From Sorangium cellulosum (GTDB lineage: Bacteria; Myxococcota_A; Polyangia; Polyangiales; Polyangiaceae), in assembly GCA_020720045.1 (NCBI GenBank), contig DYPH01000028.1:1-51653 (forward strand): a stretch of 51,653 bases of DNA. The letters run 5' to 3'. Of the stretch, positions 22,736-42,255 are shown piece after piece. The notes under the pieces are model-generated. The model worked only from the letters and a program-made list of their open reading frames with translations. It searched no databases and was not told the DNA's origin. A program made the position numbers and the translations under genes. Each line of letters begins with the position of its first letter. Positions within the stretch are counted from its first letter, which is position 1.

Positions 22736-22835
22736 ACGCGTTTGGTGAGAACTCCGCGCCGTCTCCCGCTTCGCGAACGGACGCGTTTGGTGAGAACTCC
22801 GCGCCGTCTCCCGCTTCGCGGACGGACGCGTTCGG
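22736..22835. repeat. 45-bp tandem repeat, two full copies plus a partial third (REP-like)
   Basis: Units begin ACGCGTT at 22736, 22781 and 22826, and the two full copies differ by one base. Read on the minus strand, each contains GTCCGTTCGCGA (GTCCGTCCGCGA in the second copy) followed by GGAGACGGCGCGG, the arms of an imperfect hairpin. The same core occurs in the 57-bp array at 36241. The unit length (15 codons) keeps a forward frame open (DAFGENSAPSPASRT), but no gene starts there, so it is taken as intergenic. Confidence 0.85.
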
Positions 22836-24123: not shown

Positions 24124-25467
24124 ATGGGCACCCCGATCCTCTCCACCGTCGCCCAGGCCCTCCGGCCGCCGATGATCTATAGCCTTCACGAGTTCCAGCG
24201 CCGCCTGCTGGAGCCGCTCGCCGAGTACGCGGATGTCTCCGCGCGCACGCTCCGCGATCCCAAGAACCCGCTAGCAAAACTCCCGCAACTTCGGCTGCTT
24301 GGGGCGAGCAACGCGCTCTTGCATCGCCTCACGAAGCGGTACAAGAAGCTGCCCTGGGGGATCGACGAGGTGCTTGCCCACGGGAAGCCGGTGTCGGTCG
24401 CCGAAGAGACGATCCTCGATGAGCCCTTCTGCAAGTTGGTTCGTTTTGTGCGCCGCAGCGAAGACGGCGACGTCGCCCGCCGCCTCGGGAACGACCCCAA
24501 AGTTCTCGTCTGCGCGCCGCTCTCCGGTCACCACGCGACGCTCCTTCGCGACACCATCCGGACGCTCCTCCAAGACCACGACGTTTATGTGACCGACTGG
24601 AACGATGCGCGCGACGTCCCGCTTACCGAAGGGGACTTTCATCTCGACGACTACGTCCACACGATCATGCGATTCATTCGCACGCTCGGCGCCGACCAAC
24701 TCCATATGGTCTCCGTCTGCCAGCCGACGGTCCCCGTCCTTGGTGCCGTCTCGTTGCTCGCGCAAGCTGGTGAAAAGACTCCGCGTTCGCTGACGTTGAT
24801 GGGTGGTCCTATCGACGCACGGAAGAGTCCCACGTCGGTGAATCTTCTCGCGACCCAGCATTCCTACGACTGGTTCGAGAAGAACATGATTCACAAAGTT
24901 CCCCGCGGCTATGCGGGTAAGGGGCGCCGCGTCTATCCCGGCTTCTTGCAGCTTACTGCCTTCGTGATGATGAATCCGAAGAATCACTTTAAGGCCTACG
25001 TCCGCTACTGGGTCGATTCCCTCAAAGGTGAATCGGGCGAGTCGGCGAGGATTACTCACGAGCGCTTCTACGACGAGTACAACTCGGTACTCGACATGGA
25101 TGCCGCCTATTATTTGGAGACGGTCCGCGTCGTCTTTCAGGATTTCGCCCTCGCTTCAGGGACCTGGAACGTCCGTGGCGTGCGCGTGCGCCCTTTGGCG
25201 ATCACCGAAACGGCGATCTTCACCGTCGAGGGCGAGAAGGACGACATCTCCGGCGCCGGTCAGACGGAAGCGGCCCACGATCTCTGCGCGAACGTCCCTG
25301 ACGACAAGCGGAAGCACTACATCGCTGTCGGAGCCGGCCATTACGGGATTTTCTCGGGTCGCAAGTGGCGCGAGGGCGTCTATCCGCAGATCCGCGACTT
25401 TATTCGTCAACACGGCGGCGCGACGAAAGCGATCGCGGCGTCGAACGGCAGCGCCCACGCCAGCTGA
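24124..25467 (+). CDS. phaZ: Intracellular polyhydroxybutyrate depolymerase
   Basis: A 447-residue protein of the intracellular PHB depolymerase family (PHB_depo_C). The N-terminus MIYSLHEFQRRLLEPL is characteristic, and the lipase-like box has Cys instead of Ser (VSVCQPTVP, Cys199), the known nucleophile in this family. Further blocks are YVTDWNDAR, the late acid region TVEGEKDDI and the base in GAGHYGIFSGRKW. It releases 3-hydroxybutyrate from storage granules in the cytosol. The next gene is a 3-hydroxybutyrate dehydrogenase 11 bp downstream, so the pair forms a degradation operon. The start is either 24124 or MIYSLHEF at 24172. Confidence 0.93.
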   Translation: MGTPILSTVAQALRPPMIYSLHEFQRRLLEPLAEYADVSARTLRDPKNPLAKLPQLRLLGASNALLHRLTKRYKKLPWGIDEVLAHGKPVSVAEETILDEPFCKLVRFVRRSEDGDVARRLGNDPKVLVCAPLSGHHATLLRDTIRTLLQDHDVYVTDWNDARDVPLTEGDFHLDDYVHTIMRFIRTLGADQLHMVSVCQPTVPVLGAVSLLAQAGEKTPRSLTLMGGPIDARKSPTSVNLLATQHSYDWFEKNMIHKVPRGYAGKGRRVYPGFLQLTAFVMMNPKNHFKAYVRYWVDSLKGESGESARITHERFYDEYNSVLDMDAAYYLETVRVVFQDFALASGTWNVRGVRVRPLAITETAIFTVEGEKDDISGAGQTEAAHDLCANVPDDKRKHYIAVGAGHYGIFSGRKWREGVYPQIRDFIRQHGGATKAIAASNGSAHAS

Positions 25468-25478
25468 GGATTGTTCCG

Positions 25479-26267
25479 ATGTTTCAAGGCAAGACGGCAC
25501 TCGTTACGGGGTCGACCAGTGGCATCGGGCTCGCGATCGCAGAAGCGCTCGCAGCCCAAGGGGCGAACGTTATCCTCAACGGCTTTGGCGACAGCGCCGG
25601 GCCTCGCGCTACCGTTGAGGCCGCTGCGGCGGCCGCTGGCCTTGGTGGGCGCGTCGGCTTTCACGACGCCGATATGAGCGTCGCTTCTCGTATTGAGCAA
25701 CTCGTTGAGTATGCCAATGCAGAGTTTGATGGGATCGACATCCTTGTCAACAATGCTGGCATTCAGCATGTTGCCAACGTGGAAGACTTCCCCGTCGAGA
25801 AGTGGGACGCGATCCTTGCGATCAACCTTACTTCTGCCTTCCATACGACTCGACTCACGCTTCCCCGAATGAAGGAGAAGAACTTCGGGCGCATCGTGAA
25901 TGTCGCTTCGGTGCACGGCCTCGTCGCGAGCGTCGGGAAGGCGGCCTACGTCGCCGCCAAGCACGGGCTCGTCGGCTTTACGAAGGTGACCGCCCTCGAA
26001 ACGGCCCGAACGAACGTCACCTGCAACGCGATCTGCCCCGGCTGGGTGCTCACGCCGCTCGTCCAGAAGCAGATCGACGACCGGGCCGCTCGCGACGGGA
26101 TGACGGTAGAAGCAGCCAAGATTGCTCTTCTTTCGGAGAAGCAGCCCTCCGCAGAATTTGTCACGCCCGCCCAGCTCGCCGCGCTCGTGGTCTTCCTCTG
26201 CAGCGAGGCCGGCTCCCAGATTCGTGGCGTAGCCTGGAACATGGACGGCGGCTGGACCGCCCAGTAA
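25479..26267 (+). CDS. bdhA: 3-hydroxybutyrate dehydrogenase (SDR)
   Basis: A 262-residue short-chain dehydrogenase: cofactor loop VTGSTSGIG, VNNAGIQHVANVEDFPVEKW, catalytic Ser in NVASVHGLVAS, YVAAKHG (Tyr/Lys), and ICPGWVLTPLVQKQI, which is characteristic of bacterial D-beta-hydroxybutyrate dehydrogenases. It oxidises 3-hydroxybutyrate to acetoacetate with NAD, the step after PhaZ. ATG 25479 is preceded by GAGGA at 25466. A 38-bp near-perfect palindrome begins three bases after its stop. Confidence 0.92.
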   Translation: MFQGKTALVTGSTSGIGLAIAEALAAQGANVILNGFGDSAGPRATVEAAAAAAGLGGRVGFHDADMSVASRIEQLVEYANAEFDGIDILVNNAGIQHVANVEDFPVEKWDAILAINLTSAFHTTRLTLPRMKEKNFGRIVNVASVHGLVASVGKAAYVAAKHGLVGFTKVTALETARTNVTCNAICPGWVLTPLVQKQIDDRAARDGMTVEAAKIALLSEKQPSAEFVTPAQLAALVVFLCSEAGSQIRGVAWNMDGGWTAQ

Positions 26268-26269
26268 GT

Positions 26270-26307
26270 AACAAGTGTAGGATGCATTAATGTATCCTGC
26301 ACTTGTT
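26270..26307. terminator. 38-bp palindrome after bdhA built from two inverted TGTA-N3-TGCA motifs
   Basis: Outer arms AACAAGTG and CACTTGTT pair exactly. The inner arms are TGTAGGATGCA (26276-26286) and TGTATCCTGCA (26291-26301), leaving only two T/C mismatched positions that become G-U pairs in RNA. It starts three bases after the stop, so it could terminate transcription, although no T-run follows. Paired signal motifs used as terminators are known for DNA-uptake sequences in Neisseria and Haemophilus. Confidence 0.7.
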
Positions 26308-26365
26308 CTCCCGAAGTTGTCTGGTTTGGACAACGGGGCGGCGACGCGGCGCATCCCAACGGACC

Positions 26366-26845
26366 ATGGCTCGTTACCTCGCCCGCGTTGCGACACCTCT
26401 GTCCGTCGAGACCACCTTCGACAAGCTCGCCGATCTGTCGCGTTTTTCGGAGTGGGATCCTGGCGTTCTTCACGGGCGCTGCATCCGACAAACGGCAGAC
26501 GGCGTCGGGTCGATCTATGAGCTCCTGCTCGATGCACCCTTTGGGCGCCCGTGCCTTCGCTACACGGTCGATCGCTTCGAGCGCGCGCCGCAGCACTGTG
26601 TCATCGGGTTTTCCGGCGCCATCAACGGCCTGAAATCTGTCGATGAGATCCGCGTCGCCACGGAGGCCGACGGGACCGTTGTTACCTACGACGCGACGCT
26701 CATGACCCACTTTGCCTGGGGGCTCGGTGACCGTCTGTTGAATGTGTATTTTCGAAGACTTGGCGACCGCGCCGCCGTCGGCCTTCGCCGCTTTCTCGGA
26801 GGATCCGCGGTCGTTGGGGATGCCCGCGAACGGGGCCGCTCATGA
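26366..26845 (+). CDS. SRPBCC (START/Bet v1-like) superfamily protein
   Basis: A 159-residue protein with the polyketide-cyclase/START-like pattern: ARVATPLSVETTFDKLADLSRFSEWDPGV at the start, a central strand region, and a C-terminal long helix (GLGDRLLNVYFRRLGDRAAVGL). Members bind hydrophobic ligands or act as cyclases; no ligand is evident. Its ATG lies 58 bp after the palindrome, and the end overlaps the next SDR gene by four bases (ATGA), so the two are coupled and probably act on the same compound. Confidence 0.75.
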   Translation: MARYLARVATPLSVETTFDKLADLSRFSEWDPGVLHGRCIRQTADGVGSIYELLLDAPFGRPCLRYTVDRFERAPQHCVIGFSGAINGLKSVDEIRVATEADGTVVTYDATLMTHFAWGLGDRLLNVYFRRLGDRAAVGLRRFLGGSAVVGDARERGRS

Positions 26846-36230: not shown

Positions 36231-36240
36231 GCGCGAAAGG

Positions 36241-36410
36241 CCCGTCCGTTCGCGACGACCAGCGTCGCGAGAGACGGCGGGCCTACTTTGACCCGGGCCC
36301 GTCCGTTCGCGACGACCAGCGTCGCGAGAGACGGCGGGCCTACTTTGACCCGGGCCCGTCCGTTCGCGACGACCAGCGTCGCGAGAGACGGCGGGCCCAC
36401 AAGGACAGGG
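36241..36410. repeat. 57-bp tandem repeat array, three units (REP-like palindromes)
   Basis: Units begin CCCGTCCGTTCGCGAC at 36241, 36298 and 36355, with identical copies until the third diverges after GGCGGGCC. Each unit holds a hairpin with arms GCCCGTCCGTTCGCGAC and GTCGCGAGAGACGGCGGGC around GACCAGC, then a spacer (TACTTTGACC). The period is 19 codons, so one forward frame stays open as GPSVRDDQRRERRRAYFDP repeats. It lies between FKBP and the hydrolase and overlaps the latter only if the earliest start is used. Confidence 0.92.
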
Positions 36411-36418
36411 GCCGGCCC

Positions 36419-37219
36419 GTGATCTTCGCCCTGGTCGCGTTGGTCGCGGTGTACGGCCTCTACGCCGCTTTCGTGGCGCGCAATCAGAACCGCGCCGTCT
36501 TCCCGGGGGCGTTTCAGGCGCCTCCCGGTGGGCAAATCGTTGGCGGTTCGCGACGCCCCTCGAAAGCGCCGGGGGCGCTCGTCTTCGAGCCGTCGGGCGC
36601 GCCTAGCGAAGCCGTCGCCTTCCTGTTTCACGGCAACTTTGAGCGCGCGGCTGGCGATGAGGCTGCCGTTCGCTTCTATCTCCAGCAGGGGTATGCCGTC
36701 GTCGCCATCGAGTATCCGGGCTATGAAAGTCCTGGAAATAACGACGTATTTGCGCTCTCCCCCGCCTACCCGCAGGCGGTGATCGACGACGCCTTCGCGA
36801 CGGTTCGCGCCCTGCGCCGCACGCGTACGCTTCTCGATGGGCGGTCGATCGGTGGCTTCGTTGCCGTCGCCGTCGCGCGCAAGCTCCTCGCCGAGCAGCC
36901 ATCCGCCGCGCCCGTCGAGGCGCTCGTCCTTCGGTCGACGGGAGCACGGCTGTGCGATCGTGCGTGGTCGGTCGGACTCCCACCCTTCCTCTGCCGCGTC
37001 CCCTACGACAATCGCGAAATCCCCGGCGAATTTCCGGTATTCGTCGTTCACGGGACGGCCGATGAGATCTTCCCGGTCGCCGAGGCGCGGCGCATCACGC
37101 CGCCGAATCCGCGCGGGGAGGTTCTCGAAGTTGCTGGGGGAACGCACAACACAACGCGCTTCTCCGCCGAGGAACTCGCGCGGTTCCTCGCAAAGAACGG
37201 CCTTCATCGTCCTCAATAA
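36419..37219 (+). CDS. Membrane-anchored alpha/beta hydrolase
   Basis: 266 residues from GTG 36419. One N-terminal membrane helix (VIFALVALVAVYGLYAAFVA) precedes an alpha/beta-hydrolase domain with FLFHGN (oxyanion), GRSIGGFVA (nucleophile Ser), VVHGTADEIFP (acid) and AGGTHN (base). It resembles ABHD13/BEM46-type hydrolases; the substrate is unknown. The frame is open from GTG 36227, overlapping the FKBP stop, which would add 64 Arg-rich residues encoded by the repeat array. The later start puts the helix at the N-terminus as in relatives and has AAGGACAGGGG upstream, so I prefer it. Confidence 0.8.
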   Translation: MIFALVALVAVYGLYAAFVARNQNRAVFPGAFQAPPGGQIVGGSRRPSKAPGALVFEPSGAPSEAVAFLFHGNFERAAGDEAAVRFYLQQGYAVVAIEYPGYESPGNNDVFALSPAYPQAVIDDAFATVRALRRTRTLLDGRSIGGFVAVAVARKLLAEQPSAAPVEALVLRSTGARLCDRAWSVGLPPFLCRVPYDNREIPGEFPVFVVHGTADEIFPVAEARRITPPNPRGEVLEVAGGTHNTTRFSAEELARFLAKNGLHRPQ

Positions 37220-41865: not shown

Positions 41866-42197
41866 ACAGCATCACGACCCACGTTCTTGATACGGCGAAG
41901 GGGAAGCCTGCCGCTGGCGTTCCGGTGCTGCTTGAGTTTCAGCAGACGGACGGTGCCTTCCACGAACTCGGTCGCGGCGTCACCGACGACGACGGTCGTT
42001 TGCGGACGCTCCTCGGCGGAAAGCCTGTAGAACCTGGCGTTTATCGAATCACCTTCGACACGACCGTCTACTTTGGCGACGCCGAGACCTTCTTCCCGTG
42101 GGTGACGTTCGTCTTCCGCGTGAAGGACGCGACGAGCCACTACCACGTACCGCTCCTCCTCGCCCCCTACGGGATCTCCACCTATCGCGGCTCCTGA
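41862..42197 (+). CDS. uraH: 5-hydroxyisourate hydrolase (transthyretin-like)
   Basis: 111 residues ending in the family's C-terminal signature YRGS. It has the N-terminal ITTHVLDTAKGKPAAGVPVLLE, a central Arg/Asp region (GRLRTLL) and HYHVPLLLAPYGISTYRGS, with the catalytic His residues present. It hydrolyses 5-hydroxyisourate to OHCU, the substrate of the decarboxylase domain encoded immediately upstream. The GTG start overlaps the fusion gene's stop. A strong terminator follows. Confidence 0.95.
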   Translation: MNSITTHVLDTAKGKPAAGVPVLLEFQQTDGAFHELGRGVTDDDGRLRTLLGGKPVEPGVYRITFDTTVYFGDAETFFPWVTFVFRVKDATSHYHVPLLLAPYGISTYRGS

Positions 42198-42218
42198 GAG
42201 CGCCGTATTCAAAAAGAG

Positions 42219-42255
42219 AAAGAGCGCTCGACGCAAGGTCGAGCGCTCTTTTTCG
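42219..42255. terminator. Strong bidirectional terminator after uraH
   Basis: A 14-bp perfect stem, AAAGAGCGCTCGAC / GTCGAGCGCTCTTT, around GCAAG, with a run of T after it on the plus strand and A residues before it. It separates the ureide genes from the converging surface-protein gene. Confidence 0.93.

Follow-up and report, generated by a model that had tools for sequence, protein, structure and literature searches.

Inverted pairs of a dispersed motif at transcript ends are best described in Neisseria and the Pasteurellaceae, where the motifs are linked to DNA uptake. The uptake sequences of these bacteria (DUS/USS; Kingsford et al. 2007, PMC1852404) occur in more than 1,000 dispersed copies, mostly in genes; they show an excess of close pairs with peaks in the spacing, the pairs concentrate behind stop codons and in the gaps of convergent genes, and A/T-rich flanks give the hairpin arms A- and T-rich ends. 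The highly iterated palindromes (HIP1) of cyanobacteria (PMC4390886) are frequent throughout the genome and restricted to a lineage. Rho-independent terminators form a stable sense-strand hairpin with a small loop right after the stop codon at the end of an operon. These properties are shared by the motif and the hairpin described here, which were found in a 51,653-nucleotide stretch of Sorangium cellulosum DNA (the window, i.e., the whole stretch analysed).

The hairpin follows the genes phaZ and bdhA (Table 1). The gap between the two genes is 11 bp, and they are therefore likely part of the same operon. The next gene begins 98 bp past the bdhA stop, and the genes that follow share the orientation of bdhA; all gene boundaries are our own hexamer-based calls, not annotation. 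The best relatives of BdhA in the species collection are mostly from Burkholderiales, with identities of up to 73%, and a close copy is absent from 12 of the 15 family members searched; horizontal transfer of bdhA is possible.

Table 1. Features at the end of the phaZ-bdhA locus, with positions in the window.
Feature	Position	Strand	Basis
phaZ, intracellular polyhydroxyalkanoate depolymerase	24124..25467	+	TIGR01849 545 bits
bdhA, 3-hydroxybutyrate dehydrogenase	25479..26267	+	TIGR01963 348.6 bits (cut-off 307); NF009093 360.4 (cut-off 258)
Palindrome/17-pair hairpin, probable 3' end/terminator hairpin of phaZ-bdhA	26270..26307	+	fold, sister species
First motif copy, TGYA-N3-TRCA, TGTAGGATGCA	26276..26286	+	sequence
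Second motif copy, TGTATCCTGCA on + strand, offset 15 bp from first	26291..26301	-	sequence
First copy, extended 23-bp form	26270..26292	+	A/T-rich at -6..-4 and +14..+16, per genome-wide logo
Second copy, extended 23-bp form, overlaps first	26285..26307	-	logo vs sequence
Second, weaker hairpin, GTTGTC-TGGTTTG-GACAAC	26316..26334	+	also in sister species
Next gene, SRPBCC/polyketide cyclase-like protein	26366..26845	+	PF10604 30 bits

An earlier note on this DNA had reported a 38-bp palindrome, made of two inverted motif copies inside perfect arms, three bases after the bdhA stop. The palindrome, AACAAGTGTAGGATGCATTAATGTATCCTGCACTTGTT, is real; it begins two bases, not three, after the TAA (26265-26267), and the perfect match holds for the outer arms, AACAAGTG and CACTTGTT. 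The inner motif copies are two positions off the exact inverse, and both of these positions become G-U pairs in the + strand RNA, which folds into an unbroken stem of 17 pairs, these two included, closed by a 4-nt UUAA loop. The predicted fold has -25.9 kcal/mol and a z of -7.75, with none of 200 shuffles as good; the fold of the antisense (-) strand is weaker, at -20.8. Perfect stems of at least 17 pairs were absent from all eight Markov-shuffled windows, and the real window has one besides the palindrome. This other perfect 17-pair hairpin (42216-42254) has A-rich and T-rich arms and no motif, and lies between convergent genes (stops at 42197, +, and 42274, -) in the manner of an ordinary bidirectional terminator.

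The palindrome escaped repeat finding, as its mismatches interrupt the 9-base seed. Tandem repeats are present elsewhere in the window (36239-36420, three copies at 57-bp spacing; 22736-22825, two copies of a 45-bp unit). A simple terminator scan did not list the palindrome, and Rfam covariance models, applied at the gathering threshold to the whole window, gave no match. As a stable sense-strand hairpin located just downstream of a stop codon, the palindrome has one of the features expected of a terminator. In contrast to Rho-independent terminators, it has no U-tract after the stem (the bases directly 3' are CTCCCG), its outer stem is A/T-rich, and it contains the two G-U pairs; its T-rich stretch sits within the 3' arm (CTTGTT).

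The first copy is a variant of the palindromic motif TGYA-N3-TRCA, for which the whole genome has 1,553 sites versus 74 for the reversed pattern, used as control. In 825 kb of the genome, 307 sites have a spacer of 3, versus 8-27 for each of the other spacers tested (0-2 and 4-11). The motif is dispersed beyond chance; the earlier note, which had taken it as dispersed, had read it too narrowly. The symmetry of the logo extends past the core: beside the core stands G/C, and an A/T stretch follows 4-6 bp out, in which T excludes G on one side and A excludes C on the other. The extended consensus, WWT-N2-S-TGYA-N3-TRCA-S-N2-AWW, spans 23 bp (extended-site form, TGCAGGATGCA). Core and flanks being symmetric, the orientation of a site is given by the N3 alone. 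A two-fold symmetric consensus with a fixed centre (spacer 3 only) is what a site for a dimeric protein should look like. Since the arms (AACAAG...CTTGTT) fit the flanks of the logo, the 38 bp can be read as the union of two overlapping extended sites, 15 bp apart. HIP1 (PMC4390886) differs from the motif described here, which is bipartite with an N3 centre, has degenerate Y/R positions and A/T flanks, and forms phased pairs. In small samples, the favoured N3 seems to depend on the genus, like a dialect: GGA/GAA/GAG in the genome under study, GAC/GTC in G012, and TAA in G025.

Motif sites occur in genes in proportion to the coding DNA: 66 of 579 sampled sites are intergenic, as is 9% of the DNA. 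A promoter or operator role for all sites is not favoured, given this lack of intergenic enrichment. Within genes, reading phases 1 and 2 are used about equally and phase 0 rarely, and the sites are found on either strand relative to the gene, which rules out a coding repeat as the origin of the motif. In the sister species, 92 of 102 sites are intact; the identity is 94-100% at core positions, 86-90% in the N3, and on average about 89% in the flanks. The use of two reading phases and the conservation of the core point to selection or drive on the DNA, not on the protein. One region of the genome (G000:C170:177-412) harbors six motif copies (TGTAGGGTGCA) in a 45-bp tandem repeat.

We counted 43 pairs with 1-30 bp between the cores (including a few tandem arrays), compared to about 11 expected for random placement of all sites, an excess of 3.8 times (P ~7e-13). 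At a spacing of 25-55 bp the excess is gone, except for tandem repeats. Offsets of 15-16, 21-25, and 27-28 bp dominate, and none are found at 12-14 or 17-20; the 15-bp offset within the palindrome is one of the preferred ones. With the offset classes fixed on the first genome, we tested them on five other genera: the offsets 15-16 and 21-25 recur, and 3 of 52 pairs have offsets of 12-14 or 17-20, where half of the pairs would be expected. The preferred offsets would fit occupancy by proteins bound side by side. The spacing peaks in Haemophilus were ascribed to preservation of the extended motif (PMC1852404). Reasoning from the logo speaks, short of proof, against flank preservation as the sole cause here: offsets of 19-20 would suit the flanks and are not seen. 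Most close pairs are inside genes (27 of 40 sampled). Longer arrays occur as well. Four copies at 21-bp spacing are present at L212 685-758 (G000:C92), possibly within a repeat-bearing gene, and are found alike in the sister species (G001:C57). Arrays of three to five evenly spaced copies lie between convergent genes at L287 2682-2784 (G012, 23 bp) and L290 3204-3248 (G025, 17 bp), and several evenly spaced arrays in other genera are direct rather than inverted.

The sequence sampled for gene ends amounts to 1.44 Mb; part of it was chosen for holding pairs, not for their position relative to genes. In this sample, the 60 bp that follow a stop codon contain 9 of the 33 close pairs, versus 14 of the 518 single sites (Fisher p 1.5e-6). 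Single sites in this zone (2.7%) are about as frequent as the zone's share of the DNA (2.4%), and a tie of single sites to transcript ends is not supported. Among the gene-end pairs, C240 lies 21 bp past the stop and has a long stem followed by CTTTTTT; C345, about 33 bp past the stop, is followed by TTTTTC (this pair, which overlaps only a low-scoring ORF, was assigned to the class by hand, and the convergent pair C121 was counted apart). Further examples are C104 and C61. In 8 of the 9 gene-end pairs the sense strand gives the stronger hairpin, a weak sign because 13 of 19 in-gene pairs show the same bias. The two N3 centres of a pair complement each other in 5 of the 9 pairs at gene ends, versus 2 of the 19 in genes. 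In other genera, where genes were called with a model trained on the genome under study, 17 of 33 pairs fall into the same post-stop zone, many between convergent genes.

Gene ends often carry ordinary hairpins: after 471 gene ends we found 108 strong hairpins. The best-scoring ones also have A-rich and T-rich arm ends, and several carry, like the palindrome, a T-rich stretch in the 3' arm. Since only 4 of the 108 hold two motifs, the genome does not depend on motif pairs for termination. This share of about 4% sets the genome apart from Pasteurellaceae/Neisseria, where 17-55% of the gene-end hairpins contain uptake-sequence pairs (PMC1852404). The motif described here further differs from those of Neisseria/Pasteurellaceae in its palindromic core with a free 3-bp centre, in having many of its pairs in genes, and in belonging to a different bacterial group. 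Dispersed copies on both strands, mostly in coding sequence, are found here as for a DUS/USS. A DUS/USS would also have a core of about 9-12 bp that is asymmetric, and its inverted pairs would supply many of the terminators; neither is the case here. The palindrome appears to function as uptake-sequence pairs do when they serve as terminators, but cannot be classed with them because of the missing core asymmetry and the small terminator share.

Taken as a whole, the interpretation in the earlier note was thus partly supported. Its expectation that other inverted pairs would be found near stops in this genome was borne out, as was a DNA-level role of the motif. The proposed tie between motif and transcript ends may apply to the pairs, two of which (C240 and C345) are followed by T-runs, and is not supported for the single sites. 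The arrangement known from Neisseria and Haemophilus recurs in that pairs are found at gene ends, albeit in a far smaller share of the hairpins; the likeness to uptake sequences as such found little or no support, the motif being palindromic and most close pairs lying in genes.

In the sister species, the only other congener compared, the corresponding position is occupied by AACGAGTGCAGGATGCATTGATGTGTCCTGCATTTGTT; the BdhA encoded before it is 98% identical. Four stem positions are changed, and a fifth change is in the loop. The stem changes (A-U to G-U, G-C to G-U, U-G to C-G, and U-A to U-G) are all one-sided, and 17 of 17 + strand pairs are kept through gain or loss of G-U; a two-sided compensatory change was not seen in the palindrome in this two-species comparison. 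The sister hairpin folds with -25.1 on the sense strand and with -16.5 (z -1.7) on the antisense strand. Maintenance of the sense-strand hairpin is suggestive of an RNA-level element at the end of phaZ-bdhA, but is not proof: the two-species evidence is modest, because four random transitions would preserve all + strand pairs 13% of the time. Elsewhere in the family, the more distant bdhA loci of G025 and G002 do not show the element directly after the stop, and this particular hairpin was found in the two species only. A stretch of about 25 additional bases, GATCCGGCGCTTCGCCGGGCGGAGA, separates the palindrome from CGAAGTTGTC in the sister (near window position 26311); this stretch is itself a GC-rich hairpin.

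Strong enrichment of the motif is seen in at least nine of the family's roughly 70 genera (g1, g5, g12, g20, g25, g26, g29, g57, and g68) and weak enrichment in several; all others are at or below the control. No comparable enrichment was detected in other families of the order and phylum. Outside the family, TGYA-N3-TRCA exceeded the control 2-3 fold with more than 200 sites in G144 (310/103), G230 (268/117), and G236 (209/103). ComEC, the one competence gene checked, is present in the genome under study, and equally in motif-rich and motif-poor family members. Literal text matching in the open-access literature, which is weak evidence for novelty, retrieved neither the consensus strings of the motif nor a paper linking the DNA uptake sequence to myxobacteria. 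The hairpin is of a familiar kind; on this weak evidence, the motif matches no motif described in the literature searched.

The palindrome is most likely the 3'-end hairpin of the phaZ-bdhA message. We consider it probable that two overlapping motif copies form a sense hairpin acting as terminator or 3'-end protector, and that the motif is mainly a DNA site for a dimeric protein, whose pairs were co-opted. Two extended copies of the genome-wide motif, placed 15 bp apart, make up the palindrome; as the tail of the message it folds into the 17-pair hairpin two bases past the stop, and this hairpin would end the transcript in the manner of an intrinsic terminator and/or protect the 3' end of the mRNA. 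Because no U-tract follows the stem, protection may be part of its function. That the hairpin does no more than shield the bdhA message from 3' exonucleases, without terminating, is possible but doubtful: the bare stem end, the second hairpin that follows, and the proximity of same-direction genes would agree with such a role, but other gene-end hairpins of the genome also have a T-rich 3' arm, and other motif pairs carry T-runs. The pair could instead be purely a DNA-level operator: a regulatory or nucleoid-associated protein would bind as two adjacent, phased dimers that block or organise transcription at the gene end, as roadblock or insulator, and the hairpin would be a by-product of symmetry. 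The symmetric 23-bp logo, the excess of in-gene pairs at the same preferred offsets, and the evenly spaced arrays between convergent genes in other genera, several of them direct, are in its favour; however, the stem changes in the sister all keep the + strand RNA pairs and spoil those of the - strand, and N3 arms are complementary at gene ends and not in genes, so that we judge it rather improbable.

For the motif itself, the primary job would be at the DNA level, and most likely that of a binding site for a dimeric protein, our first choice because of symmetry and phasing. The main role should lie elsewhere than at gene ends, because most copies are single and inside genes. An uptake sequence is the second choice, on account of copy number, coding location, and gene-end pairs. 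In its full form, this reading would make the bacterium naturally competent, the motif its DNA uptake sequence, and the palindrome an inverted pair of the usual kind, serving as terminator; we hold this unlikely. The 1,553 copies on both strands with their A/T flanks, the close-pair excess, the spacing peaks, and the gene-end pairs do resemble Neisseria/Pasteurellaceae (PMC1852404), and ComEC is present; but the core is palindromic, unlike the asymmetric GCCGTCTGAA of Neisseria and AAGTGCGGT of Haemophilus, ComEC occurs in every family member tested whether motif-rich or not, motif pairs are rare in terminators, and the text search linked no uptake sequence to myxobacteria. A REP/MITE-like mobile repeat, which a short palindrome in an intergenic gap might bring to mind, is hardly credible: the 38-bp unit is single-copy in the genome, which refutes a mobile element for the whole unit, and only the 11-bp core is dispersed, with N3 and flanks varying from site to site.

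Under the dimeric-protein reading, pairs that arise near gene ends would be co-opted as hairpins, as are uptake-sequence pairs in Neisseria and Haemophilus. More broadly, the chances seem about even that a palindromic site in 1,000-2,000 copies marks the chromosomes of some genera in one family, that an unknown dimeric protein binds it cooperatively (or that it is a symmetric uptake sequence), and that its phased pairs double as gene-end elements. Co-option of the same kind in an unrelated lineage, and of a motif that is different and symmetric, suggests that terminator evolution may be fed by any motif that is both abundant and self-complementary. It also draws attention to a genome-wide motif that needs an explanation, and whose cognate protein could be isolated directly.
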